From the NCBI GenBank assembly GCA_003573975.1, contig AP018533.1:744001-808000 (forward strand): DNA of 64,000 bases. The letters are read 5' to 3'. Shown piece after piece: positions 389 to 24,276 of this stretch. Position 1 is the first letter of the stretch, and the number at the start of each line of letters is the position of its first letter. Source of the DNA: Clostridiales bacterium CCNA10 (GTDB taxonomy: Bacteria; Bacillota; Clostridia; Oscillospirales; Oscillospiraceae). The notes beneath the pieces are model-generated. The model was given only the letters and a program-made list of their open reading frames with translations. It made no database searches and was not told the origin of the DNA. Position numbers and translations under genes: made by a program.

Positions 389-1258
389 TTATCCTTTGGC
401 GGTTCCCTCAAAAGAGTCCCCGTCCTCATCCTCGTCCATATCCGTATCAATGTCCAGTCCTTCATTGTTCCCAACATTCTTCTCGTAGAGCTTGGTCCAT
501 TTGAGCGGATATTTGCATTTGCGGTTATAGGCCAGAAGCATCGCCTCGGCATAGCCCATAGAACCGGGGCGTCGTTCCTTGGCTGTTCTCGAAAGCAACT
601 TGACCGACATTTCCCCCACTTTTTCCTTAAAGGTCTCATCTTTCAGGGCATCGCCGAACGTGTAGACCAATCTGGCGATTCCGTTGAGCATATTGGCGGA
701 CAGCGAATTCATATCGCCCTCCCAGGTACCTACGCAGAGTCTGAGTGTTCGATCAAGTACGTGGTAACCGAACCGCTCATATATATTTTCAAGCGTAGAG
801 ACAGCACAGACAACGCCATAGTTTCTGACCTGGCCAATGGAAAGAGAATAAGACTCTACCAGATCTTTGATCATAAGCTGCTCCTGATTCCCGGCTTCCA
901 CATTTGCCATAAACACTTCATAGGGACGGAGCGGTTTGACAAACTTCATCTGGTTGGCGAAGATATCTGCCTCGTGTTCGTAGTTTAGATCATCGTATAT
1001 CATGCACCAGACTGGCGTTTCACGAGAGCCGGAGGCCAGTGCGACGATCTCCACCGTGTGCTGGCCATTGAAGACATAGTTGACCCCATTTCGACGGCTT
1101 ACCTTCACAGGGTTGATCTGATACAGATCAAAGTGTGCCGCAGCATTCAGCACATGCTGTTCGGAAATATTCCTCTGGTACTCCTGATTGGATACGAGGT
1201 TCTTAATGGGAATCTGTTCAAAGTGAACATTGGGAACAAACATACTATAATCTTCCAT
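389..1258 (-). CDS. ParB-like nuclease-domain protein
   Basis: A 289-aa protein. The N-terminal half carries a ParB/sulfiredoxin-like fold pattern: EQIPIKNLVSNQEYQRN, then NPVKVSRRNG and FNGQHTVEIVAL, where the usual DGHHR-type box is NGQH. The acidic tail (DIDTDMDEDEDGD) suggests a flexible C-terminus. The start ATG overlaps the stop of the upstream ParB-like gene (TAATG), indicating translational coupling. It is the last gene of the minus-strand recombinase operon. Such single-domain ParB-like proteins are common on Clostridia mobile elements; the role here (DNA binding, nuclease or NTPase switch) is not shown by the sequence. Confidence 0.7.
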   Translation of the reverse strand: MEDYSMFVPNVHFEQIPIKNLVSNQEYQRNISEQHVLNAAAHFDLYQINPVKVSRRNGVNYVFNGQHTVEIVALASGSRETPVWCMIYDDLNYEHEADIFANQMKFVKPLRPYEVFMANVEAGNQEQLMIKDLVESYSLSIGQVRNYGVVCAVSTLENIYERFGYHVLDRTLRLCVGTWEGDMNSLSANMLNGIARLVYTFGDALKDETFKEKVGEMSVKLLSRTAKERRPGSMGYAEAMLLAYNRKCKYPLKWTKLYEKNVGNNEGLDIDTDMDEDEDGDSFEGTAKG

Positions 1259-1645
1259 TAGGATTCCCCCTCAATTGCATTGAGCATTTCCTGGATTTTT
1301 CCTTCTAATTCAGTCAACGCCGCCAAGAGGTTTTGTCTGGCAGCAGGTGAGATCGCTTCCAACTGTGCCATGGACTTTGTCCGGTCGATGGAGCTCATCC
1401 AGGAGGGGATCGTAAGAGTAAGTCCAGCAACTTCCGTATCCGGGTCATAGGCGGGCATCGTCTTGATTGTCGGCTGCTCTGCCGCCGCTGTGCCGAGCTT
1501 GGCAGAAGCGTCGGAATAAAGGCATCGTCTCGATTCACTGTAACGAGCGAAGGCATAGGGATTTTTTCCGATTTTTTTACTAAGTGCTTTCAATTCTTCG
1601 GGTTCCATTTCTGATAGAGCAACGATATTTTCGAAAGAAATCTTA

Positions 1646-2921
1646 GGTCGATTGTAAAATGAAGTTGGACACCTAAGAAAAAATCCATAGTGATTTTCCC
1701 CACATGGTAGAATGAAGTTTGCACACAACTTCTTCCAAGGGAGGGCAATCACTATGGACTGCCAAGATTATATCACAGAATCGGTAGAACGCAAGAAGGG
1801 ACAGCACTTACAGCGAGAGGAACGAGGCGCAATCCAGCATCTCAAGAACGCCGGCTACACGAACAGAGCCATTGCCAGAGCAATCGGATGTTCACCAACC
1901 ACCGTTGGGAACGAGCTAAAGCGCGGCACACCGCCCCGAAAGAGCAGCAAGGGCAGGAAACCCGGATACTCGGCAAGGCGTGGAGAAGCGGTCTACAAGG
2001 CGAACAGAAAGCGTTCTCGGAAACCACACCGAATCTGTCACTGCACTCGCTTCATTCGCTGGATAATTGAACAGGTCAAAGAACACAAGTGGTCTTTGGA
2101 TGCCTGCGTCGGCTATGCTCGTCTGCACAGGCTGTTTTCAGCAGAGGAGATGGTCTGCACCCACACGCTTTACAATGAGGTCTGGGCAGGCAGCCTTGAC
2201 TTGTCTGTGACAGAACTGCCCGAAACCATGAAACGCAAGCAGCACAAGGACTCCAAGCCCCGTGAACACAAGAAGAGCTTCGGCACAGACATTTCTCAGA
2301 GGCCTGAGATCGCAGCTCTGCGCATCGAGGAAGGTCATTGGGAAGATGACACCGTGGTCGGCAAGAGGGGCGGTAAAGAGGCTGTTGTCCTCTCCCTGTT
2401 GGAGAAGAAAACGGAGAACTATATTGCCATCCGGATTCCCGGCAAGGATGCAGACTCCGTTCTGAACGCCATGCAGTCACTCAGGGGAGAATTCGGAGAC
2501 AAGTTCTCACAGGTCTTCAAGACCATTACCGTGGACAACGGCTCGGAGTTCTCTGCGTTCAGTCAGGTCGAGAACTGGGGCTGTGCAGTCTACTTTGCGC
2601 ATCCCTACACCTCATGGGAACGTCCCCAAAACGAACGCCACAACGGGCTGTTTCGAACCTTTGTTCCGAAGGGCGTGTCCATTGAGGCTTTCTCTGCTGA
2701 GTATATCTTGGCTGCAGCTGATGAATTGAACGGACGGCCTCGCAAGAAGCTTGGCTACCGCACCCCGGAGGAACTGTTTGACGAGTTCCTCGACTCTGTT
2801 TACGCAGCCGAAGGCTGCGGCAGCATCGCCCAGGACGGAAGCCAGCGGCTTCCATCCTGACCGTCGCTCTGATTCACTAAGTTCTACCGTGCAGGTGTCC
2901 AACTTGCACTTGCAATTTGCG
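1646..2921 (+). mobile_element. IS30-family insertion sequence, copy 1 (1276 bp)
   Basis: The element starts GGTCGATTGTAAAAT and ends CTTGCAATTTGCG. The two ends share an imperfect inverted repeat whose inner part AAGTTGGACACCT is exact. It is flanked by a 13-bp direct repeat, GAAAGAAATCTTA, at 1633-1645 and 2922-2934. Two further 1276-bp copies lie at 15973-17248 and 23001-24276, each with its own 13-bp duplication. Copy 1 interrupts the ParB-like gene on the minus strand. Confidence 0.95.
1754..2860 (+). CDS. IS30-family transposase (copy 1)
   Basis: A 368-aa DDE transposase. ATG at 1754 is chosen because AAGGGAGGG precedes it by about 7 nt; the frame is also open upstream to 1712. Residues 15-60 hold a helix-turn-helix typical of IS30 (NRAIARAIGCSPTTVGNEL). 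The catalytic core shows GHWEDDTV, TVDNGSEF and the RPQNERHNGLFR region carrying the final Glu. Copies 2 and 3 read GHWEGDTV, so this copy has Gly to Asp immediately before the first catalytic Asp, which may affect activity. Otherwise the three proteins appear identical. Confidence 0.95.
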   Translation: MDCQDYITESVERKKGQHLQREERGAIQHLKNAGYTNRAIARAIGCSPTTVGNELKRGTPPRKSSKGRKPGYSARRGEAVYKANRKRSRKPHRICHCTRFIRWIIEQVKEHKWSLDACVGYARLHRLFSAEEMVCTHTLYNEVWAGSLDLSVTELPETMKRKQHKDSKPREHKKSFGTDISQRPEIAALRIEEGHWEDDTVVGKRGGKEAVVLSLLEKKTENYIAIRIPGKDADSVLNAMQSLRGEFGDKFSQVFKTITVDNGSEFSAFSQVENWGCAVYFAHPYTSWERPQNERHNGLFRTFVPKGVSIEAFSAEYILAAADELNGRPRKKLGYRTPEELFDEFLDSVYAAEGCGSIAQDGSQRLPS

Positions 2922-3480
2922 GAAAGAAATCTTATATGCCCCGGAAAGAATGTGCGGAACAAGTTCAGGAGCATTTTGTTCAATGGCATCTAATGCTGCA
3001 CTGTATTTCGCATATTTCTGTACGGTTGCGCCGGCCACATGATACTTCCTTCCCAGCCGGGCTGCTGTTCGCCGGCCACTCTCTTCATCTATTGGGCGGC
3101 CTCTCCCCACAGTGATGTTGGGATTCGGACGGTACTGATTATAGCCATTCCTACTTCGCTGTACTTTCTTTTCCGCTTCATATTGTTTCCCAATCAGATA
3201 TTTCCTGGTTTCTTCTGAGATGTTGCGGCGCCCAAGTTGGTTCGCACAGATCCAGGCGATGGCAGCATCTCTGCTTGGAAAATCCAGCTCCCTGACTCCA
3301 TAAGGAATGCGCATTTTATTGCATATTTCATAGCGATTATGACCGTCGAGAATGGTATCATTCCATGCAATGATATCTTCTCGGCATCCTTCCATGACCA
3401 GATTCAGCTCTAGTTGCCGGTATTCCTCCCGGCGAAGTGGACGAATCAAGTTTTTGAATTCCGGATCGATGTTAAGCTGC

Positions 3481-3879
3481 CTAAATGCTTTCTCTGTCAT
3501 GTAGCCTCCTGCGTTCCAGCTGTTTGACGGTTTTGAGGGAAAAATATGCGACCCGGTTGATTTGATCGATCTCACCGGTCAGCTGGTAATTAAATCTCAG
3601 GTCAAAGCCACCGAGCAGTTCGGAAAAGTTTTTTATAAGGATCGTACTATAGAATTCTATAGACTGCTGGGATGTGCTTGACATCCGAACCTTGTTTGCG
3701 GTCCCGCCTGAAATAGGTTTATCCGATCCGAGAACGGCGATATACAGTTCTTCAGGGTTTACCAGGAATTGCACATACGCAGGATTCTTCAAGAGACGAA
3801 TCGTTTGCCTGTGGATTCGAATCCGGTTTCGCGCAGGGTCCAGCGTTAAGTAAGCCTGCAATTGATTTTCATGATTCAT
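3481..3879 (-). CDS. 132-aa protein sharing a domain with the recombinase C-terminus
   Basis: The start at 3879 is set by GGGAGGACAAGGAC upstream; it overlaps the preceding gene by 11 bp and the following one by 20 bp. Residues about 25-50 (NPAYVQFLVNPEELYIAVLG) match DYVQVLVNQEGRILAIRP of the upstream 268-aa protein and HVELLVNPVEMKFAVRTV of the serine recombinase, followed in all three by a Lys/Ile-rich helix and a G-D/N-LRYxL-G strand (FDLRFNYQLTGEI here). No named family is recognised. It could be an accessory recombination factor or a DNA-binding subunit; that is inference from context and homology only. Confidence 0.65.
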   Translation of the reverse strand: MNHENQLQAYLTLDPARNRIRIHRQTIRLLKNPAYVQFLVNPEELYIAVLGSDKPISGGTANKVRMSSTSQQSIEFYSTILIKNFSELLGGFDLRFNYQLTGEIDQINRVAYFSLKTVKQLERRRLHDRESI

Positions 3880-4675
3880 GTCCTTGTCCTCCCAAAACGG
3901 ACTTACGATCAGTATCAGAGGCAGCCTCGTCTGACTGCTCTGATGCAGCAGGAGCGATGTTATCGCGCAACCCATATACAGCATATCCTTCAGAAATGTC
4001 AACCTGCATAGATTTCTGGTGTTCCCGGAACGGGAGTCCAAACTGCGTCTTCCAGCCCTCCGGAAACACGGGAGTTCGAGAAGACTTGGGCTTCTGGCCG
4101 TCTTTTTGCACCCGCTGATACACTTCGGTCGCTGTGAGATCAAATGCGATGAGCCACTCATCCTTGGCGTGGATTATCCGCCCGAGGAGTTTATATCGAT
4201 AGTCCAGATTCCAGCCCATCAGTGAAAACACTTTGGCGAAAAAAATCTTGCAGGTGATCTGTTTCGGTTTACGTCTGCCGGAGCCGTTGGTGCACCAGGC
4301 GCAGGCATCCCGATCTTCCGCCCGGCAGGGACGGATCGCCAAGATCCTGCCCTCTTGATTGACCAGTACCTGCACATAATCAACCTGTGGGAAGCGGTTT
4401 AGGCAGGCGGTATTTACATAAAATTTGTAATTGTTAAAAGTTACAGACGGCTCATTAATATGGGCGAAGAACTCACGGCGTACTACTTGGTAGCCATCGT
4501 AGTTAAAGTCACCGGCCATCTCCAGGACCTCATCACTACTGCTGTTTGCAGGAGAAACTGCCGGTTCCGCTTTTTCTAATTCAGCAGACGGAACAATATC
4601 CAAATGCCTGTCCTCCAGGGAACGAAGCATTCCGGCGATTACGCCGCCGGCATTTTCCCGACTTTCTTCGGACAT
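3869..4675 (-). CDS. 268-aa protein homologous to the recombinase C-terminal region
   Basis: ATG at 4675 directly abuts the stop of the recombinase gene, with GGAGGAATCC inside the recombinase tail as its SD. From about residue 50 it aligns with the recombinase extension: GDFNYDGYQVVRREFF against GDFDMRGFEIARSEFF, YVQVLVN against VELLVNP, LMGWNLDYRYKLLGRI against LFGWSPDLKYRIAGAL, and FPEGWKTQFGLPFREHQKS against VPEEWIGSFGKQYYLHQQS. It lacks the catalytic and zinc/coiled-coil recombinase domains. A Cys pair (ACAWC) is present. The function is unknown; a directionality factor or DNA-binding partner is plausible. Confidence 0.7.
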   Translation of the reverse strand: MSEESRENAGGVIAGMLRSLEDRHLDIVPSAELEKAEPAVSPANSSSDEVLEMAGDFNYDGYQVVRREFFAHINEPSVTFNNYKFYVNTACLNRFPQVDYVQVLVNQEGRILAIRPCRAEDRDACAWCTNGSGRRKPKQITCKIFFAKVFSLMGWNLDYRYKLLGRIIHAKDEWLIAFDLTATEVYQRVQKDGQKPKSSRTPVFPEGWKTQFGLPFREHQKSMQVDISEGYAVYGLRDNIAPAASEQSDEAASDTDRKSVLGGQGHES

Positions 4676-6556
4676 TTAGGATTCCTCCTTCCCGTGCTGA
4701 CCGAGTTCCTGACAGATGTAATCACGCAGCACATCAAATCCTGTCACGCGGAGTTTCTGCCCGGTTTCATACAGTTGGCCCTCCATGCGGATTTTCCAGT
4801 CTTCCTCACTCTGATCGCAAACGGGCGGGAAAGACTGTTGGTGGAGGTAATATTGCTTGCCAAAAGAGCCGATCCACTCCTCCGGGACAGCCCGCACCCG
4901 TTTGCCGGAGACAGAAAGGGGCTGTACAGGTTCCTTCGCCTGCTCCGTGCTTTTTGGGCCGGAAAGCAGGTACGATTTAATAAACGCTTCCGCATCATTG
5001 ACATCAAAAATATACGCAGATTCAGTTTCGGTTTGAAATAGCGCTCCGGCGATCCGGTATTTTAAATCCGGACTCCAGCCGAATAACTGAAAAAGCGTTT
5101 CTACATAGGCCGCACCGGCAATATCCCTGGGCTGATACTTTCCGTCTGACAGCTTGGAAAACACGACTGCGTTGCGGCTGCTTTTCGCCACTGTACGGAC
5201 GGCGAACTTCATCTCCACAGGGTTGACCAGCAGCTCCACATGGTTGTCTTTCCCAAAAGACCGAACACATGTGGTGCTGAACTTGATCCTCTTATCTTGA
5301 AACAGTACATAGGGACGGTGATAATTATCAAAGAATTCACTGCGGGCGATTTCAAAGCCTCTCATATCAAAATCTCCCGGAACCAATGTGATGCTCGAGG
5401 GCAGGGATGCATCCGCCTGCTGCTCATCGGGTGGATGGATACTGGCGGACGCTTGGTAATAATCCGACGGCTTGAATCCAGCCCAGCGGGGATTGATGGT
5501 CACAAACCCTCTGAGCAGACCGCTGTCGATTACCCGCAGCTCCGGGAGGATGGAGCGGTTGCCATACTTGGAGTTGTTCAGAAGATGCTGAACCGCAATG
5601 AAATCATCTCTGGAAACAATGCCCTCGTGGTGGTTCCGGTAAAGGCTCTGGGGCCTGTCCCCCCGATTCTTCCTGGCCTTGTGGTTCAGATAGTTGGGGG
5701 TGAATGTCTTCCGGGTCAGCACATCCCCGCAATGCCGCTCATTGCGAAGGACCTGGACAATGGAGTTGGATGTCCACTTGACGTTCCCCAGATAAGTCTT
5801 CCTGCCCAGCTCGGTGAGCGCCGCCGCAATGTCGGAGGTGGAATATCCGTACAGATACATATAGAAGATGAGTTTTACCGTGGGAGCTTCATCCGGGTTG
5901 ACGACCAGGTTTCCATCCGCATCGTGAGAATACCCCAGCAGCTTGGGCGTCAACGGCAGACCTCCGTCCAGCCGCATCCGCAAGGAGGTCTCCATGCTCC
6001 GGCTGCGGATATGAGACTCCTCCTGAGCCATGGTGGCTTGAAACGAAAGCGCCATCTGGGAATCGTCTTTGAGGGAGAAGATACATTCGCTCTCAAAGAA
6101 CACCCCGACAGGACTGGGTAGCTCCGCAAGCATTCGCACCATGCTGATACAGTCCACCACATTCCGGGCAAAGCGAGACACGCTTTTGGTAATGATCATA
6201 TCGATTTTCCCGCTGCGGCAATCGGCGATCATGCTGTTGAACTCGTCCCGATGAGCCAGAGAAGTCCCGCTGATTCCCTCATCTGCATAGATTTTGACCA
6301 ATGTCCAGTTGGGATGATGCACAACAAAATCCTCATAGTATTTCTTTTGCAGCTCATAGGAGGACGTCTGCTGGACATTGTCCGTGGAGACACGGGCATA
6401 CACGGCGACCCGCTGCCTTATATCATTGTCGTAATAGTCAATAGGCTTTTTGGCCGGAATGAATTCATAGTTCTCCGGGTCAACTTTTGTGTTGATGCGC
6501 CGGCGGACCCGTTCTTTTCGCTCCGCAAGCTGTTTTCGTGTGGACTTGTCAATCAT
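4676..6556 (-). CDS. Large serine recombinase
   Basis: A 626-aa protein. The resolvase N-terminal domain begins near residue 48 with AVYARVSTDN (catalytic Ser57), then YADEGISGTS and ITKSVSRFARN (conserved Arg cluster). The recombinase domain follows (TPKLLGYSHDADGNLVVNP, then IVQVLRNERHCGDVLT). The last roughly 230 residues replace the usual coiled-coil tail with a domain shared by the two downstream small proteins. Start 6556 has GGAGGGAAATGCTGC upstream and overlaps the preceding gene by 8 nt. It should catalyse integration or excision of the element; no attachment site for it was identified in the window. Confidence 0.92.
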   Translation of the reverse strand: MIDKSTRKQLAERKERVRRRINTKVDPENYEFIPAKKPIDYYDNDIRQRVAVYARVSTDNVQQTSSYELQKKYYEDFVVHHPNWTLVKIYADEGISGTSLAHRDEFNSMIADCRSGKIDMIITKSVSRFARNVVDCISMVRMLAELPSPVGVFFESECIFSLKDDSQMALSFQATMAQEESHIRSRSMETSLRMRLDGGLPLTPKLLGYSHDADGNLVVNPDEAPTVKLIFYMYLYGYSTSDIAAALTELGRKTYLGNVKWTSNSIVQVLRNERHCGDVLTRKTFTPNYLNHKARKNRGDRPQSLYRNHHEGIVSRDDFIAVQHLLNNSKYGNRSILPELRVIDSGLLRGFVTINPRWAGFKPSDYYQASASIHPPDEQQADASLPSSITLVPGDFDMRGFEIARSEFFDNYHRPYVLFQDKRIKFSTTCVRSFGKDNHVELLVNPVEMKFAVRTVAKSSRNAVVFSKLSDGKYQPRDIAGAAYVETLFQLFGWSPDLKYRIAGALFQTETESAYIFDVNDAEAFIKSYLLSGPKSTEQAKEPVQPLSVSGKRVRAVPEEWIGSFGKQYYLHQQSFPPVCDQSEEDWKIRMEGQLYETGQKLRVTGFDVLRDYICQELGQHGKEES

Positions 6557-7154
6557 GCAGCATTTCCCTCCGGGGTTCGTCATCAGGGAGTATCTTCCAA
6601 CCGGGATTTGGCAAAAAGTACAGGTCGTGCAGATCCTCTTGATAATAGGAAGCCAGCGTATAAATATCCTCCGAAACGAAGTAAACGCCCACTGGCTTTG
6701 GGAGTGCTGCCAAGAGGCGCGTACAGAAAGAGAGTTCGGAGAGTTTCTTCGAGATATTGCTTGCTTTCTGGGTAATGATCAGATCGACCTTTTCATCGTA
6801 GCAGTCTTGAAGAAGCCTTGACCACTCCGGGGCGCTCTCCATATTGGGCGCAGTGCTGCCCTCGTCCACATAGAAACCGACAAACATCCAGTTTGGGCAG
6901 AGAGCCAGTGTGTCAAGAAATTGCTTTTTATGAGCTGAGAGATAGTCCTCATAGCGGGTCTGGTTAAAGTAGCGGATGTATACCGCCACACGGTAATGTG
7001 TTTTGGGAAGCGGGCGTTCCCGCTTGATTTCCTTTAACCAGGCACGATGTTCCGCTAAAAGGATGTTTCGTTCCGTTTCCCTCTCCAGCAGGAAATCAAA
7101 TGAGGGCATAACTTCCTGCTCTGACTCTCTATTTTGAATGGTCAGATCTGACAT
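6549..7154 (-). CDS. Catalytically degenerate serine-recombinase-like protein
   Basis: A 201-aa protein whose resolvase-like domain aligns along its length with the next gene's catalytic domain: YRVAVYIRYFNQT against QRVAVYARVSTDN, CPNWMFVGFYVDEGS against HPNWTLVKIYADEGI, LIITQKASNISKKL against MIITKSVSRFARNV, and LPKPVGVYFVSEDIYTL against LPSPVGVFFESECIFSL. The catalytic Ser is Phe63 here and the SRFAR arginine motif is lost, so strand cleavage is not expected. ATG at 7154 (SD GGGGGAGC) is preferred over 7190. It is coupled to the active recombinase by an 8-nt overlap, suggesting a regulatory or heteromeric partner. Confidence 0.8.
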   Translation of the reverse strand: MSDLTIQNRESEQEVMPSFDFLLERETERNILLAEHRAWLKEIKRERPLPKTHYRVAVYIRYFNQTRYEDYLSAHKKQFLDTLALCPNWMFVGFYVDEGSTAPNMESAPEWSRLLQDCYDEKVDLIITQKASNISKKLSELSFCTRLLAALPKPVGVYFVSEDIYTLASYYQEDLHDLYFLPNPGWKILPDDEPRREMLHD

Positions 7155-7188: not shown

Positions 7189-7217
7189 ATTATATAATCT
7201 GCAGACTAATAACAAAA
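7189..7217 (-). promoter_or_regulatory. Sigma-70-type promoter of the recombinase operon
   Basis: On the minus strand TTTTGT (7217-7212) and TATAAT (7194-7189) are 17 bp apart, 35 bp upstream of the ATG at 7154. The palindrome at 7217-7252 abuts the -35 box. Confidence 0.55.
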
Positions 7218-7252
7218 TCGACCAGAAGTCAACACCTTGACTTCTGGTCGAT
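7217..7252. promoter_or_regulatory. Perfect 16-bp palindrome, probable operator
   Basis: ATCGACCAGAAGTCAA is followed by CACC and then its exact reverse complement. It touches the -35 box of the recombinase operon and lies 46 bp beyond the stop of the minus-strand Xre gene. No T-run follows on either side, so an operator is more likely than a terminator. A degenerate relative lies at 8190-8226. Confidence 0.6.
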
Positions 7253-7298
7253 AGATGAGAAAAAAAGAAGCGAGCCGGCAATTCCAGCTCGCAATTTT

Positions 7299-7658
7299 TC
7301 AGGTATTGTCATCCCGTCTGGCCATAGTGGATTTCAACTCACGAACAATCTTCAGGATGGAATCCAGCTCCTTGGGAGAGCAGTCGGCCAGCAGCTCGTC
7401 AAACTCGCTCTGGTATAGGCTTCTCACCTCCGGCACATCGGGCCGAAGGAGGGAATCAGCAGATACTTGCAGGGCTTCGATGATTCGGATAAAAGTTTCC
7501 AACTTCATGCTCGTCTTGCCTTTTTCGATATTGCTGATATGCGGCAGCGAGATATTGGCCTTCGCTGCAAGATCGGCCTGGCTCATCCGGCGATTGATCC
7601 GCGCATCTCGAATACGGGAGCCGACTAACTGGCTCTCGGTCAAATCATGTTCCGTCAT
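7299..7658 (-). CDS. Xre-family transcriptional regulator
   Basis: A 119-aa protein with an N-terminal HTH_3 domain at about residues 12-67 (IRDARINRRMSQADLAAKANISLPHISNIEKGKTSM) and a C-terminal helical tail (FDELLADCSPKELDSILKIVRELKSTM). The start ATG has GGGGGGAAG upstream. It is divergent from a second Xre gene at 7799; their tails resemble each other (LLADCSPKELDSILKIVRELK against LLSDCSTYEMLILLDVIKSLK), so they are paralogues. Probably a repressor of the element's recombination or cargo operon. The partner of the truncated HipA is less likely because of the distance. Confidence 0.88.
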   Translation of the reverse strand: MTEHDLTESQLVGSRIRDARINRRMSQADLAAKANISLPHISNIEKGKTSMKLETFIRIIEALQVSADSLLRPDVPEVRSLYQSEFDELLADCSPKELDSILKIVRELKSTMARRDDNT

Positions 7659-7798: not shown

Positions 7799-8176
7799 AT
7801 GAGCCTGAACTACAAAGTCATTGGAAAACACATCCGTGAAGTCCGCCAGCGCAACCACCTTTCGCAAGCGATGCTCTCTGAACTGGTGGATAAAACGCCA
7901 TCTTACATCAGCTACATAGAGAGCGGAATCAAGAGCATGAGCCTTGACACCTTTGTGCTTATCGCCAATGCCTTGGGAGTATCTCCCGACCGGCTTTTGA
8001 TGGAGCAAGTCACCAGCACTGAACGGTGCGCCAGCGAAGAAATCACTCTACTCCTTTCGGATTGCAGTACCTATGAGATGCTGATTCTCCTGGATGTTAT
8101 AAAATCGTTGAAAGCTTCCTTGAAAGAGCATCAAGGCAGATACGGTAAACCGGACAACTTTGATTTTACCGTCTGA
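7799..8176 (+). CDS. Xre-family transcriptional regulator (second paralogue)
   Basis: A 125-aa protein with an N-terminal HTH (IGKHIREVRQRNHLSQAMLSELVDKTPSYISYIESGIKSM) and a helical C-terminal part. The SD GGAGG lies 9 nt before the ATG. It is transcribed away from the first Xre gene and toward the plus-strand operon starting at 8336. The divergent Xre pair and the repeated palindromes around it suggest a two-repressor switch controlling the flanking operons; that is inference. Confidence 0.88.
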   Translation: MSLNYKVIGKHIREVRQRNHLSQAMLSELVDKTPSYISYIESGIKSMSLDTFVLIANALGVSPDRLLMEQVTSTERCASEEITLLLSDCSTYEMLILLDVIKSLKASLKEHQGRYGKPDNFDFTV

Positions 8177-8189
8177 ACCTGAGAAAGCA

Positions 8190-8226
8190 ATCAACCGGAA
8201 GTCACGAGCATTGACTGCCAGTCGAT
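8190..8226. promoter_or_regulatory. Imperfect palindrome related to 7217-7252
   Basis: ATCAACCGGAAGTCA, a 6-nt loop, then TTGACTGCCAGTCGAT. Both arms match the consensus ATCGAC-AGAAGTCAA of the 7217-7252 palindrome with a few changes. It lies just after the plus-strand Xre gene and upstream of the plus-strand operon. Confidence 0.5.
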
Positions 8227-8335: not shown

Positions 8336-9055
8336 ATGATCTATTACACAGGTGATATCCACTGAGACCCCTATGAGGTCATACAGTTTTGCGACAGCAA
8401 GAAGCTGACAGAGCAGGATACTCTGGTTCTGCTTGGAGATGTAGGAGCGAACTACTACCGAAACCGGCGAGACACAGAGATGAAGAAAGTTCTTACCGCC
8501 GTAAAGCCGACGATGCTCTGCATCCACGGCAACCATGAGATCCGACCGGCCAGCCTCCCTTCCTATCGGACGAAGCAGTGGAACGGCGGGACAGTCTGGG
8601 TAGAGGAAGCCTTTCCCCGTCTGCTGTTTGCTATGGATGGTGAGATCTTTAATCTGGAAGGTCTCCGACACTTGGTCATCGGCGGAGCTTACAGCGTGGA
8701 CAAATTCTACCGGCTGGCCAGAGGTTGCGGCTGGTGGCCGGATGAGCAGCCTTCCCAGAAGATCAAGGACAAGGTTGTCCAGACACTGGATACCTGCGGG
8801 TGGCAGGTAGATACCGTCCTCTCCCACACCTGTCCCTATCCGTATGAGCCGCGGGAAGCCTTTCTTCCGATGATCGACCAGAGTACCGTGGACGACTCTA
8901 CCGAGAAATGGCTGGAGGAGATCGAGCGGAAACTCAAATACGGCCACTGGTTCTGTGGGCACTGGCATATCGACAAGCATATCGACCGGATGCACTTTCT
9001 CTTCCACAGCGTGGAGGCTGCGCCGCAGCTCTTGACGGGAGGGGACACATTATGA
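8336..9055 (+). pseudogene. Calcineurin-like metallophosphoesterase with in-frame TGA at codon 10
   Basis: The frame from ATG 8336 (SD AAGGTGG) reads MIYYTGDIH, then TGA (8363-8365), then DPYEVIQFC and on to the stop at 9055. The expected motif is GDIHGD, so a Gly codon GGA has become TGA. The rest of the enzyme is intact: LLGDVGANYY, CIHGNHEIRP, LSHTCPY and FCGHWHIDKH give the metal ligands of the family. Reinitiation at ATG 8480 would miss the first ligand motifs and GDVG. It overlaps the next gene by ATGA. It is either inactivated or rescued by readthrough. Confidence 0.8.
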
Positions 9056-12301: not shown

Positions 12302-12612
12302 TGCTATCCAAGGAAACCTTCTGCGAAGCCCTGCGAAAGATCCAAGCGCAAAAGGATCGGGATGAACAGTTCAGTAAGGCACTCACTCTGATGGGAGACG
12401 GACATTTCGTATTTGAGGGCGGAGCGCCGCTTCTTGCCGCCTTGCTGGATGTACTGAAGGAAGCAGTCAACGACCAGTACGACTATATCAGCTGGTGGCT
12501 GTACGATGCCACCCCAGACTATGAAGTCTGGACCGATGATGAAAAAACTAAGTGGTGCCTGACGGAACCGGAAGCCCTGTATGATTTCATCCGGGATGAA
12601 TGTCAGGGCTGA
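12301..12612 (+). CDS. Conserved hypothetical protein of Clostridia mobile elements, 103 aa
   Basis: ATG 12301 overlaps the previous stop (TAATG). The C-terminal half, EAVNDQYDYISWWLYDATPDYEVW followed by EPEALYDFI, is of a type I associate with small proteins of Clostridia conjugative elements. It is soluble and acidic with no recognised catalytic motif. It is the last gene of the overlapping run that begins at 8336; a 42-bp gap separates it from the next gene. Confidence 0.6.
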   Translation: MLSKETFCEALRKIQAQKDRDEQFSKALTLMGDGHFVFEGGAPLLAALLDVLKEAVNDQYDYISWWLYDATPDYEVWTDDEKTKWCLTEPEALYDFIRDECQG

Positions 12613-12654
12613 GTGGTAGCGTCTTCCCAAATTCGTTCAAGGAGGTCAAATCAG

Positions 12655-13044
12655 ATGTCTAAGTGCTGCCTATACTGCCGGGTAGATGGAACGTCTACGG
12701 AAAGCAACCGTCTCGCCATAAACCAGCAGCTCACCGTACTCCGAAGCCTCGCCAGACAGCTTGGCTTTTCGATTTCCACCGAGATGCTCCAATATGAGAG
12801 CGGCTTGGACGCAAACCGCCAGAGCATTCGAACGCTGATCCGTGATGCACGACATGGAGTCTATGGCCGGGTACTGGTGATGAACGGCGACCGTCTGGCT
12901 CGTGACGCCGAAGGTTTGGCGGCGATTGGAGAAAAATTGACCGCAGCAGGAGTCCGGGTCTATTGCCCAGATGGCGAAGTTGATCTGGCCCCCGCATATT
13001 CTCATGGTTATTTCCGGGTGGCGACGATGGAACAGACTATGTGA
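12655..13044 (+). CDS. Resolvase-domain protein lacking the catalytic serine
   Basis: A 129-aa protein; ATG 12655 has AAGGAGGTCAAATC upstream. It is only the N-terminal serine-recombinase fold: CCLYCRVDGTSTESNRLAINQQL at residues 4-26 and VLVMNGDRLARDAEGL near residue 75. In active enzymes the motif is YxRVS; here Asp11 stands where Ser should be, while the Arg motif DRLARD is kept. There is no DNA-binding recombinase domain. It is probably a non-catalytic relative with a regulatory or structural role; the Ser at position 14 could in principle substitute. Confidence 0.7.
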   Translation: MSKCCLYCRVDGTSTESNRLAINQQLTVLRSLARQLGFSISTEMLQYESGLDANRQSIRTLIRDARHGVYGRVLVMNGDRLARDAEGLAAIGEKLTAAGVRVYCPDGEVDLAPAYSHGYFRVATMEQTM

Positions 13045-13161
13045 TTGGGAAAAGTTCCCGTCCCACCGCTCTTCCACGGCCAAAGAAAATGCGGTATAAT
13101 AAAGGAACCATATACACCAGACCGGGAAAGTCGGTCATTCCGGCAGGAAGGAGATGTTGCC

Positions 13162-13521
13162 ATGAGCTCATTCGAGGAAAAGAAAAGAGAGATTGAGAGG
13201 GGCCTTGGGGTATTCCAGAACTACATTGAAGGCTCTGAACTGCTCGATGTGGTCTATTCGAAAAAGTTCGGGTATGTTCTGCTTGGCCTGCCTGCGGCGG
13301 ATTCCATTGATGACTCCGATGTAACACGACTGGAAGATCCCGAAACATTGGTGAAAGAGATCTATCAGAATCTCGCATACGACTTTATGGAGCAGGAAGG
13401 GCACAGCGAGGATTACACGGAAGCCACCAATCTGGAAAAGCGAGCTATGCGGGAATGGATGAAAGAGTACACGGATCAGCTGCCGGAATACAACTACTTA
13501 CTGGACGAACTCCTTGGATGA
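13162..13521 (+). CDS. Hypothetical protein, 119 aa
   Basis: Start 13162 follows AGGAAGGAGATGTTGCC. A TATAAT box at 13095-13100 suggests its own promoter. The protein is highly acidic and helical (EEKKREIERGLGVFQNYIEGSELLDVVYSKKFGYVLLG, then YNYLLDELLG at the end). The open frame upstream of 13162 is in phase with the preceding resolvase-like gene, separated only by that gene's TGA, but the internal promoter and SD argue for a separate gene. No family is recognised. Confidence 0.6.
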   Translation: MSSFEEKKREIERGLGVFQNYIEGSELLDVVYSKKFGYVLLGLPAADSIDDSDVTRLEDPETLVKEIYQNLAYDFMEQEGHSEDYTEATNLEKRAMREWMKEYTDQLPEYNYLLDELLG

Positions 13522-13874
13522 TGTGTCCGATGAAGCAGGCGCTTCCCTCAGTCAATCTTTTGGCATGGATAAAGCGGACATCTTTTTTGGTCGAACACTA
13601 AAATTGACCCTCGGGTGGAAAATCCGCAGCCATCGCAGCGAAAACGGCAAAAAAATAATGGGTGAAGACCCGCAAAGCCTTGAAAATCATGGATTTCCGC
13701 AAATATCTCAATTGGTCTTACACTCCAACAAGCCGCTGAAATCGCATGATTTCAGCGGCTTCCTTCATTTTCCATTACTTTTCTGTTTAGTTTATTCTTG
13801 TACCTGCTGTTTGACCCATACGCCGACCCATACGGGAAATTTCAGCGGAAAGGGCTGGAGCATTTCAGAGAGGA
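13522..13874. other. Intergenic region with hairpin and integrase arm-type repeats
   Basis: No convincing gene. A perfect hairpin (AAGCCGCTGAAATC, loop GCAT, and its complement, 13730-13761) can terminate either side. At 13812-13835 two tandem 12-bp units, TGACCCATACGC and CGACCCATACGG, sit just beyond the integrase stop. Near-identical units recur at 24516-24539 close to the tRNA-Met fragment, as expected for integrase arm-binding sites at the two ends of an element. Confidence 0.55.
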
Positions 13875-15972: not shown

Positions 15973-17248
15973 CGCAAATTGCAAGTGCAAGTTGGACACC
16001 TGCACGGTAGAACTTAGTGAATCAGAGCGACGGTCAGGATGGAAGCCGCTGGCTTCCGTCCTGGGCGATGCTGCCGCAGCCTTCGGCTGCGTAAACAGAG
16101 TCGAGGAACTCGTCAAACAGTTCCTCCGGGGTGCGGTAGCCAAGCTTCTTGCGAGGCCGTCCGTTCAATTCATCAGCTGCAGCCAAGATATACTCAGCAG
16201 AGAAAGCCTCAATGGACACGCCCTTCGGAACAAAGGTTCGAAACAGCCCGTTGTGGCGTTCGTTTTGGGGACGTTCCCATGAGGTGTAGGGATGCGCAAA
16301 GTAGACTGCACAGCCCCAGTTCTCGACCTGACTGAACGCAGAGAACTCCGAGCCGTTGTCCACGGTAATGGTCTTGAAGACCTGTGAGAACTTGTCTCCG
16401 AATTCTCCCCTGAGTGACTGCATGGCGTTCAGAACGGAGTCTGCATCCTTGCCGGGAATCCGGATGGCAATATAGTTCTCCGTTTTCTTCTCCAACAGGG
16501 AGAGGACAACAGCCTCTTTACCGCCCCTCTTGCCGACCACGGTGTCACCTTCCCAATGACCTTCCTCGATGCGCAGAGCTGCGATCTCAGGCCTCTGAGA
16601 AATGTCTGTGCCGAAGCTCTTCTTGTGTTCACGGGGCTTGGAGTCCTTGTGCTGCTTGCGTTTCATGGTTTCGGGCAGTTCTGTCACAGACAAGTCAAGG
16701 CTGCCTGCCCAGACCTCATTGTAAAGCGTGTGGGTGCAGACCATCTCCTCTGCTGAAAACAGCCTGTGCAGACGAGCATAGCCGACGCAGGCATCCAAAG
16801 ACCACTTGTGTTCTTTGACCTGTTCAATTATCCAGCGAATGAAGCGAGTGCAGTGACAGATTCGGTGTGGTTTCCGAGAACGCTTTCTGTTCGCCTTGTA
16901 GACCGCTTCTCCACGCCTTGCCGAGTATCCGGGTTTCCTGCCCTTGCTGCTCTTTCGGGGCGGTGTGCCGCGCTTTAGCTCGTTCCCAACGGTGGTTGGT
17001 GAACATCCGATTGCTCTGGCAATGGCTCTGTTCGTGTAGCCGGCGTTCTTGAGATGCTGGATTGCGCCTCGTTCCTCTCGCTGTAAGTGCTGTCCCTTCT
17101 TGCGTTCTACCGATTCTGTGATATAATCTTGGCAGTCCATAGTGATTGCCCTCCCTTGGAAGAAGTTGTGTGCAAACTTCATTCTACCATGTGGGGAAAA
17201 TCACTATGGATTTTTTCTTAGGTGTCCAACTTCATTTTACAATCGACC
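15973..17248 (-). mobile_element. IS30-family insertion sequence, copy 2 (1276 bp, inverted)
   Basis: Same ends as copy 1 in reverse orientation (starts CGCAAATTGCAAGTG, ends ATTTTACAATCGACC). A 13-bp target duplication GTTAGTTTTTGAT flanks it at 15960-15972 and 17249-17261. It faces away from copy 3, and the two bracket the 17.25-23.0 kb island. Confidence 0.95.
16034..17140 (-). CDS. IS30-family transposase (copy 2)
   Basis: A 368-aa transposase with the same start context (AAGGGAGGG then ATG) as copy 1. It has the standard GHWEGDTV motif, where copy 1 has Asp in place of Gly, plus TVDNGSEF and NERHNGLFR. The frame is complete and the element ends are intact, so this copy is probably mobile. 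Confidence 0.95.
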   Translation of the reverse strand: MDCQDYITESVERKKGQHLQREERGAIQHLKNAGYTNRAIARAIGCSPTTVGNELKRGTPPRKSSKGRKPGYSARRGEAVYKANRKRSRKPHRICHCTRFIRWIIEQVKEHKWSLDACVGYARLHRLFSAEEMVCTHTLYNEVWAGSLDLSVTELPETMKRKQHKDSKPREHKKSFGTDISQRPEIAALRIEEGHWEGDTVVGKRGGKEAVVLSLLEKKTENYIAIRIPGKDADSVLNAMQSLRGEFGDKFSQVFKTITVDNGSEFSAFSQVENWGCAVYFAHPYTSWERPQNERHNGLFRTFVPKGVSIEAFSAEYILAAADELNGRPRKKLGYRTPEELFDEFLDSVYAAEGCGSIAQDGSQRLPS

Positions 17249-23000: not shown

Positions 23001-24276
23001 GGTCGATTGTAAAATGAAGTTGGACACCTAAGAAAAAATCCATAGTGATTTTCCCCACATGGTAGAATGAAGTTTGCACACAACTTCTTCCAAGGGAGGG
23101 CAATCACTATGGACTGCCAAGATTATATCACAGAATCGGTAGAACGCAAGAAGGGACAGCACTTACAGCGAGAGGAACGAGGCGCAATCCAGCATCTCAA
23201 GAACGCCGGCTACACGAACAGAGCCATTGCCAGAGCAATCGGATGTTCACCAACCACCGTTGGGAACGAGCTAAAGCGCGGCACACCGCCCCGAAAGAGC
23301 AGCAAGGGCAGGAAACCCGGATACTCGGCAAGGCGTGGAGAAGCGGTCTACAAGGCGAACAGAAAGCGTTCTCGGAAACCACACCGAATCTGTCACTGCA
23401 CTCGCTTTATTCGCTGGATAATTGAACAGGTCAAAGAACACAAGTGGTCTTTGGATGCCTGCGTCGGCTATGCTCGTCTGCACAGGCTGTTTTCAGCAGA
23501 GGAGATGGTCTGCACCCACACGCTTTACAATGAGGTCTGGGCAGGCAGCCTTGACTTGTCTGTGACAGAACTGCCCGAAACCATGAAACGCAAGCAGCAC
23601 AAGGACTCCAAGCCCCGTGAACACAAGAAGAGCTTCGGCACAGACATTTCTCAGAGGCCTGAGATCGCAGCTCTGCGCATCGAGGAAGGTCATTGGGAAG
23701 GTGACACCGTGGTCGGCAAGAGGGGCGGTAAAGAGGCTGTTGTCCTTTCCCTGTTGGAGAAGAAAACGGAGAACTATATTGCCATCCGGATTCCCGGCAA
23801 GGATGCAGACTCCGTTCTGAACGCCATGCAGTCACTCAGGGGAGAATTCGGAGACAAGTTCTCACAGGTCTTCAAGACCATTACCGTGGACAACGGCTCG
23901 GAGTTCTCTGCGTTCAGTCAGGTCGAGAACTGGGGCTGTGCAGTCTACTTTGCGCATCCCTACACCTCATGGGAACGTCCCCAAAACGAACGCCACAACG
24001 GGCTGTTTCGAACCTTTGTTCCGAAGGGCGTGTCCATTGAGGCTTTCTCTGCTGAGTATATCTTGGCTGCAGCTGATGAATTGAACGGACGGCCTCGCAA
24101 GAAGCTTGGCTACCGCACCCCGGAGGAACTGTTTGACGAGTTCCTCGACTCTGTTTACGCAGCCGAAGGCTGCGGCAGCATCGCCCAGGACGGAAGCCAG
24201 CGGCTTCCATCCTGACCGTCGCTCTGATTCACTAAGTTCTACCGTGCAGGTGTCCAACTTGCACTTGCAATTTGCG
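23001..24276 (+). mobile_element. IS30-family insertion sequence, copy 3 (1276 bp)
   Basis: Same ends and length as copies 1 and 2. The 13-bp target duplication GTGTATAATTAAT flanks it at 22988-23000 and 24277-24289. It lies 220 bp after the opine-dehydrogenase gene. All three targets are AT-rich 13-mers without obvious shared sequence. Confidence 0.95.
23109..24215 (+). CDS. IS30-family transposase (copy 3)
   Basis: A 368-aa transposase whose protein appears identical to copy 2 (GHWEGDTV form). Only scattered silent changes separate the DNA copies, such as CGCTTTATT for CGCTTCATT and CTTTCC for CTCTCC, so the three insertions are recent. The element ends and frame are intact. Confidence 0.95.
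   Translation: MDCQDYITESVERKKGQHLQREERGAIQHLKNAGYTNRAIARAIGCSPTTVGNELKRGTPPRKSSKGRKPGYSARRGEAVYKANRKRSRKPHRICHCTRFIRWIIEQVKEHKWSLDACVGYARLHRLFSAEEMVCTHTLYNEVWAGSLDLSVTELPETMKRKQHKDSKPREHKKSFGTDISQRPEIAALRIEEGHWEGDTVVGKRGGKEAVVLSLLEKKTENYIAIRIPGKDADSVLNAMQSLRGEFGDKFSQVFKTITVDNGSEFSAFSQVENWGCAVYFAHPYTSWERPQNERHNGLFRTFVPKGVSIEAFSAEYILAAADELNGRPRKKLGYRTPEELFDEFLDSVYAAEGCGSIAQDGSQRLPS

Follow-up and report, generated by a model that had tools for sequence, protein, structure and literature searches.

The window analysed here, a stretch of 64,000 nucleotides from Clostridiales bacterium CCNA10, carries on its minus strand six open reading frames (ORFs) that overlap or abut in the order P0006-P0005-P0004-P0003-P0002-P0001, running from 7154 down to 389. 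P0006 (R; 6549..7154, 201 aa) is a predicted pseudo-recombinase with a resolvase domain only, and P0005 (RC; 4676..6556, 626 aa) is a large serine recombinase ending in a domain that we call C. From the ORFs and family comparison, P0004 (C1; 3869..4675, 268 aa) is a C domain plus extensions and P0003 (C2; 3481..3879, 132 aa) is a C domain standing alone. The last two genes, P0002 (B1) and P0001 (B2; 389..1258, 289 aa), encode putative ParB-like proteins. Five of the six genes are intact in the window; the fifth, B1, is split into a 5' portion (2922..3500, minus strand) and a 3' portion (1258..1645, minus strand; recognized by its ORF end and its matches to intact relatives) by an insertion at 1646..2921, which we take to belong to the IS30 family. 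This insertion, on the plus strand, is flanked by a 13-bp direct repeat (1633-1645 and 2922-2934) and encodes a transposase (1712-2860, plus strand) with an HTH_38 match and a weak rve match in Pfam. B1 is unbroken in relatives. The junctions are an 8-nt overlap (P0006/P0005), an abutment (P0005/P0004), overlaps of 11 nt (P0004/P0003) and 20 nt (P0003/P0002, with P0002 starting at 3500), and a TAATG in which the start of P0001 overlaps the stop of the split B1. An ORF check of the window confirms these six ORFs and five junctions as an earlier, sequence-only reading had described them; the starts used are those which that reading implied, and longer ones are possible for P0006 (at 7190) and P0005 (at 6583). 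The unit as it was then drawn omits the HTH gene upstream (7299-7658).

The same six genes occur in the same order in 7 of 7 genome relatives. Among viral loci anchored on P0001 and having enough upstream DNA, 55 of 56 keep the order recombinase, C, C, ParB-like 1, ParB-like 2, which makes the gene order fixed beyond chance. Viral loci anchored on C1 keep it in 75 of 76 cases downstream and 65 of 65 upstream, and those anchored on P0006 in 36 of 37 (the three anchored sets share contigs). P0004 is matched by twenty phage records, and the four that were examined are all labelled Ca. Heliusvirales (a related paper, PMC9226167, concerns the Heliusviridae). Distant relatives behave differently: in some genomes ParB-like pairs and recombinase-C sets are found apart, and recombinase-C sets without ParB-like genes occur in G029, G189 and G220. 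The sequence-only reading had named independent occurrence of the genes in most other genomes as the finding that would speak against a common system; the neighbourhood survey shows such independence in part at low identity, but close viral relatives almost never separate the genes. No description of the six-gene operon was found in the literature searched.

A promoter for the operon lies on the minus strand at 7189..7217, with a perfect -10 (TATAAT, 7189-7194) and a poor -35; it is absent from the sites returned by a simple promoter scan of the window. Its support comes from comparison: of 24 loci picked for carrying a dyad, 22 have a -10-like hexamer that begins 21-23 nt past it, against about 6% per 5-nt bin in shuffled sequence. 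This comparison across loci and the fixed gene order together support the earlier claim of a single unit with one promoter. The dyad, 36 bp long (7217..7252, on the -35 side of the promoter), is a candidate regulatory site, variable in sequence and adjoining the promoter in many loci. A palindrome test leaves 21 of 41 loci without a dyad, at least four of those 21 having weaker matches. The dyad model, at a score of 12, has no match in 21 of another 22 loci; its sole, weak match is in L056, which like L057 belongs to a full-module genome (L060 is a rearranged set, and the remaining loci hold sets that are separated or partial). As a possible parS-like site for the ParB-like proteins, the dyad is a candidate only.

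Upstream lie HTHa (7299..7658, minus strand, 119 aa), a Cro/C1-type HTH regulator (PF01381, E 1.5e-13), and the divergent HTH regulator HTHb (7799..8176, plus strand, 125 aa; PF01381, E 7.5e-15); an upstream HTH match is present in 51 of 54 loci. A sequence scan places a terminator-like hairpin after HTHa (7270..7292, minus strand). We do not take the window's dyad for a terminator, since HTHa is followed by this separate hairpin and the promoter sits at a fixed distance past the dyad. Several loci have two dyads flanking the HTH pair, the second about 1 kb further upstream, past the divergent genes; in the window a possible degenerate second copy beyond HTHb (8197..8226) was noticed by eye only, and pattern scans and a PSSM scan of the window miss it. 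A pair of flanking dyads could mean that P0005 inverts the HTH segment between them as a genetic switch. Strand usage in loci with a single HTH match (17 on the operon's strand, 7 on the opposite one) and an inverted alignment of 123 nt between L042 and L080 that covers the HTH gene would fit inversion, but that alignment is the only inverted one among 54 loci, and all 27 of 27 two-HTH loci (some of them near-duplicates) show the same arrangement. The evidence for inversion of the HTH segment is slight, and we regard such a switch as very unlikely.

P0005 matches both the resolvase N-terminal domain (PF00239, E 1.1e-23) and the Recombinase domain (PF07508, E 6e-22) in Pfam, and its catalytic Ser and Arg residues are invariant across 38 aligned sequences. 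In P0006 the catalytic site has no Ser in any of 24 sequences, and an invariant Asn replaces the Arg of the SR motif. Judged by its residues, P0006 is a conserved pseudo-recombinase whose catalytic function appears to have been lost, and the "recombinase pair" proposed earlier holds for P0005 but not for P0006. P0006 is missing from 23 of 50 viral loci (roughly half of the copies in viruses keep it), and it was undetected in the four Ca. Heliusvirales phages examined. Retention of an inactive recombinase, together with a dyad at the promoter and in some loci a second past the HTH pair, would suit an operon that mainly regulates lysogeny, its proteins binding DNA at the dyads and recombining it little, if at all. 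We consider this unlikely, as the catalytic residues kept in all 38 P0005 sequences would be needless for a pure regulator.

One unnamed domain, C, is common to the C-terminus of P0005, P0004 and P0003. The two domain-sharing proteins of the sequence-only reading, P0004 and P0003, do share it, but that account was incomplete, since the tail of P0005 has the domain too. A PDB sequence search with the C family gives no significant match. In a structure search with the P0004 model, all matches have E above 0.001 and TM-scores near 0.1, and the top of the list is mostly DNA sliding clamps from rank 3 on, ranks 1 and 2 being a mismatch repair complex; the P0003 model places PCNA clamps first (best E 0.046). 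On these models "clamp-like" is a lead only for what the C domain may be. Against viral models, the P0003 model has three matches at E <= 0.001, all without assigned function and led by gp105 of Lactococcus phage KSY1 (TM 0.65). The gp105 gene adjoins an RNase H gene in that phage.

For the last two genes, the description as two ParB-like proteins is plausible without being firm. P0001 matches DUF6551 in Pfam (E 1.4e-30) and the ParB-like phrog_1033 (E 4.4e-14); in its family (P0001 and 36 relatives) 37 of 37 sequences have DUF6551 and none of the 37 matches the Pfam ParB domain. The assignment of P0002 comes from some of its relatives, 10 of 44 matching phrog_2159 and 8 of 44 matching phrog_4715, both ParB-like, but again no Pfam ParB match is found among the 44 sequences. 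Profile comparison detects no similarity between the P0002 and P0001 families, and PDB sequence searches with the B1 and B2 families give no significant match. Pfam finds no ParA family match in the six operon proteins; elsewhere, ParB-like pairs have ParA and ParB genes for neighbours in G270, and PemK-type genes in G203 and G213. CTP or ATP is bound by phage proteins that combine DUF6551 with a ParB-CTPase fold (PMC12704722). Defence or anti-defence roles have been suggested there for some phage ParB-fold fusions, and the present module is phage-borne. None of the six proteins has a PADLOC match at E 0.01, however, and we hold a defence or anti-defence module to be highly improbable.

Many copies of the operon have another recombinase close by. 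In viral loci with at least 4.5 kb of downstream DNA, 38 of 52 contain a further recombinase ORF (350 aa or longer); the other 14 show none in the available DNA, and in these P0005 itself could act as the integrase. The window copy adjoins a recombinase triad whose first gene has an in-frame stop, and the triad may therefore not work in this genome. It is possible, though doubtful, that P0005 with the C proteins forms the element's primary integrase/excisionase and that the neighbouring set is a second, independent system. The intact active site of P0005, the 14 loci without a second recombinase, the broken triad gene and the recombinase-C sets that lack ParB-like genes all fit such a role. 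Against it, most of the 52 loci do have another recombinase, one follows the recombinase-C set in G029 and G189 as well, and inspection by eye revealed no clear repeat at the edges of the shared 20-kb block by which an attachment site could be placed. Where a neighbouring set is present, it is the likelier primary integrase. Because such sets adjoin many copies, the integration suggested earlier is no more than a possible role for the operon. The alternative of transfer finds no backing: PHROGs and Pfam identify no relaxase or transfer family among 10 block proteins, and the module is phage-borne. (What we take to be a relaxase-like gene in G085 lies outside the block.) The same searches find no phage structural genes among the 10, four of which have no PHROG match; other ORFs were judged by reading.

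Our preferred reading, held tentatively and with somewhat less than even confidence, is that the operon serves the element carrying it as an accessory module of phage type, for site-specific recombination and for the maintenance of that element. The accessory operon usually adjoins a separate recombinase set, and how it works we infer as follows. HTH regulators or ParB-like proteins would act at the dyad and control the operon. Once the operon is on, P0005 would cut and rejoin element DNA; P0006 would be its non-catalytic partner, the C proteins possible accessory subunits alongside it, and the ParB-like proteins, loaded on DNA close by, might hold copies of the element together or sort them. 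Circular or multimeric element DNA could in this way be resolved and kept in a lysogenic or excised state. Counting for the accessory module are the fixed order, the intact P0005 active site, its loss in P0006, the neighbouring recombinases, the phrog_1033 match, the nucleotide binding of phage DUF6551 fusions, the ParA, ParB and PemK-type genes next to ParB-like pairs, and the dyad with its promoter. Counting against it are the lack of ParA in the operon and of Pfam ParB matches in both ParB-like families, the viral loci without P0006 (23/50) or another recombinase (14/52), the loci without a dyad (21/41), the broken triad gene beside the window copy, and a C domain without a significant PDB match. 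A bolder proposal, which we think unlikely, is a new recombination machine in which an active large serine recombinase, an inactive subunit and free C domains would be positioned by two ParB-like nucleotide-switch proteins.

Serine recombinases are valued because a single protein makes a simple tool. In this widespread gut-phage operon an active recombinase is joined by detached copies of its own domain, by ParB-like proteins and often by an inactive twin, a combination that suggests a natural machine of greater complexity. The operon also offers a concrete setting in which ParB-like proteins that lack a ParA can be tested, and its regulation can be tested directly through the dyad and promoter.

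Large serine recombinases, such as the serine integrases of phiC31 and Bxb1, resemble P0005, which likewise has a resolvase and a recombinase domain and keeps the active-site residues. A C-terminal zinc ribbon is common but not universal among them, and Pfam finds no match to one in P0005. Unlike them, P0005 has as its C-terminal part an unnamed domain found also in two separate proteins, and its gene is often adjoined by that of a conserved inactive paralogue. The best NCBIfam matches of P0005 are the SCC cassette recombinases CcrA, CcrB and CcrC, but the scores fall far under the curated cut-offs (best 79.1 of 900 bits) and the partner genes differ. As in the window, the four examined Ca. 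Heliusvirales phages have an HTH gene upstream of the module and, downstream of it, recombinase genes on the opposite strand; in contrast to theirs, the window copy is chromosomal, in a block without recognized structural genes. P0001 is like the DUF6551 ParB-fold proteins (PMC12704722) in matching DUF6551 and a ParB-like PHROG. It differs from them in that it and its 36 relatives lack the Pfam ParB domain, and in that two ParB-like genes here follow a recombinase, without ParA.

The operon of six minus-strand ORFs at 389-7154 encodes, in transcription order, the recombinase-like P0006 (201 aa), the recombinase P0005 (626 aa, "recombinase-C"), P0004 (C1, 268 aa), P0003 (C2, 132 aa) and two ParB-like proteins, P0002 (B1) and P0001 (B2, 289 aa); the ORFs, their coordinates and their overlaps agree with the sequence-only reading. 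All seven relatives from named genomes have the six genes in one order, with protein identities of 73-100%. B1 is interrupted in the window by an IS30-family insertion element with a 13-bp direct repeat, longer than is usual for that family; the three relatives inspected at this gene each have an uninterrupted B1. Near-identical IS30-family transposase genes lie at 1712-2860 (the copy in the operon), 16034-17182 and 23067-24215, and at 12495-13643 of the extracted locus L010.

The unit is genuine, keeps a fixed form and recurs widely across gut viral contigs. A scan of viral contigs anchored on P0001 confirmed 82 relatives, of which 80 loci were kept; counted only over loci with sufficient DNA, B1 lies upstream of the P0001 relative in 77/77, two C ORFs are present in 68/68 and recombinase-C in 56/56, and gene order is exact in 55/56, the exception having extra, fragmented C ORFs (L130). 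A P0006-like ORF occurs in 27 of 50. Two further scans took C1 (107 confirmed, 80 kept) and P0006 (40 confirmed, 39 loci) as anchors; many contigs are common to the scans, the samples not being independent. With C1 as anchor, C, B1 and B2 lie downstream in 75/76 and recombinase-C upstream in 65/65; with P0006 as anchor, the complete order is present in 36/37. Searching annotated phages with P0004 returned 20 records. The four opened are labeled Ca. Heliusvirales; in all of them the module is preceded by an HTH gene and followed by recombinase genes that lie on the opposite strand. P0006 was not detected in these four, and BLAST with P0003 found no match in one (L041), where an ORF of similar size stands at the expected place.

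Among 295 genomes of the order, matches were found to P0004 in 17, P0001 in 17, P0002 in 20 and P0006 in nine (the last at E 1e-30). The view that the genes belong together holds for close relatives: eight of the nine genomes with a P0001 relative of at least 68% identity also have a P0004 relative of at least 56%, the ninth (G082) having a remnant. It does not extend to low-identity parts, which stand apart in some genomes. B1-B2 pairs without the rest of the module occur in G203 (two), G213, G293 and G270, recombinase-C sets in G029, G189 and G220 show no ParB-like genes alongside, and G098 has every module gene except P0006 in a different order. It looks as if two units of older origin were fused to give the operon.

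P0005, with matches to PF00239 and PF07508, is a large serine recombinase; 38 aligned sequences show no variation in the residues around its catalytic Ser and SR..R motif. P0006 is a resolvase domain and nothing else; its catalytic position is Ser in none of 24 aligned sequences and an invariant Asn replaces the Arg of the SR motif, so that catalytic loss has been maintained across wide divergence. P0003, P0004 and the C-terminal end of P0005 have a single domain in common; P0004 relatives gave no meaningful Pfam match, and the predicted structure of P0003 is confident (pLDDT 88). An AAA_25 ATPase gene precedes recombinase-C sets without ParB-like genes at L059 6763-7737 and L062 2446-3483.

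The P0001 family matches DUF6551 in 37/37 aligned sequences, and P0001 also matches phrog_1033, named ParB-like; the P0002 family matches phrog_2159 (10/44) and phrog_4715 (8/44), both so named. Yet the Pfam ParB domain was found in none of the 37, nor at E 0.01 in any of the 44, and the earlier description of both proteins as ParB-like is therefore likely, by sequence match, rather than proven. Distant DUF6551 relatives occur in phages of other hosts (e.g. Mycobacterium, Gordonia), and phage proteins with DUF6551 fused to a ParB-CTPase fold are reported to bind CTP or ATP (2025, PMC12704722). At L156 6693-10903 a ParB-like pair comes after genes for a ParA-type ATPase and for a ParB protein matching PF02195; at L152 8680-9848 and L154 8692-9861 such pairs adjoin PemK-type toxin-antitoxin genes.

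The module lies in a block common to G035 and G085 (20,098 alignment columns, 97.8% identity), together with a triad of recombinase genes, an HTH gene paired with HipA, two metallophosphoesterases and match-less genes. Ten proteins of the region searched against PHROGs and Pfam gave no structural or transfer families (four lacked a PHROG match), and inspection by eye found no clear attachment repeat at the block edges. A metallophosphoesterase gene at 8336-9055 of the window has an early in-frame stop; its L003 copy is intact. The middle triad gene (301 aa; L010 16190-17095, L003 14292-15197) has Recombinase and zinc-ribbon domains and no catalytic domain in the L003 copy searched; like P0006, its product resembles a recombinase but lacks an active site. 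The first triad gene (L010 14631-16172) has an in-frame stop in CCNA10 and is intact in L003. Another recombinase is present in 38 of 52 viral loci with at least 4.5 kb downstream, and 14 show none, which bears on whether P0005 and the C proteins are the element's primary integrase/excisionase, a less probable reading. Since a second recombinase set is usually present and the ParB-like genes are tied to the operon, we tentatively prefer an accessory recombination-and-maintenance role; our confidence in it is below even, and is reduced because DUF6551 is itself not an established ParB fold and the neighboring triad is broken in CCNA10.

In many loci, phage and chromosomal, a 36-bp dyad (7217-7252 in the window) precedes the first operon gene by about 95 bp. 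Its arms, which co-vary between loci, reach at least 13/15 paired positions within 230 bp in 20 of 41 loci, with 0 of 820 shuffled controls reaching 13; the other 21 fall below this, at least four with weaker matches. In 22 of 24 loci, selected for carrying the dyad, a -10-like hexamer starts 21-23 nt past it. Where 1200 nt or more of upstream DNA was available (54 loci), 51 loci have an HTH match there. It is conceivable, if improbable, that the operon is mainly a lysogeny regulator acting at the dyads. Several loci have a second, weaker dyad copy about 1 kb further upstream (in the window a possible copy at 8197-8226, seen by eye only and missed by scans). Inversion by P0005 of the HTH segment between two dyads, as a genetic switch, seems very remote. 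Against it, where two HTH matches occur (27/54) their arrangement is identical in 27/27; in its favor, single matches (24/54) lie on the operon strand in 17 and the opposite strand in seven. The accessory role remains our preferred reading. The literature searched gave no description of the operon. There is a slim chance that it is a new recombination machine, joining an active serine recombinase to an inactive subunit, free C domains and two ParB-like proteins.
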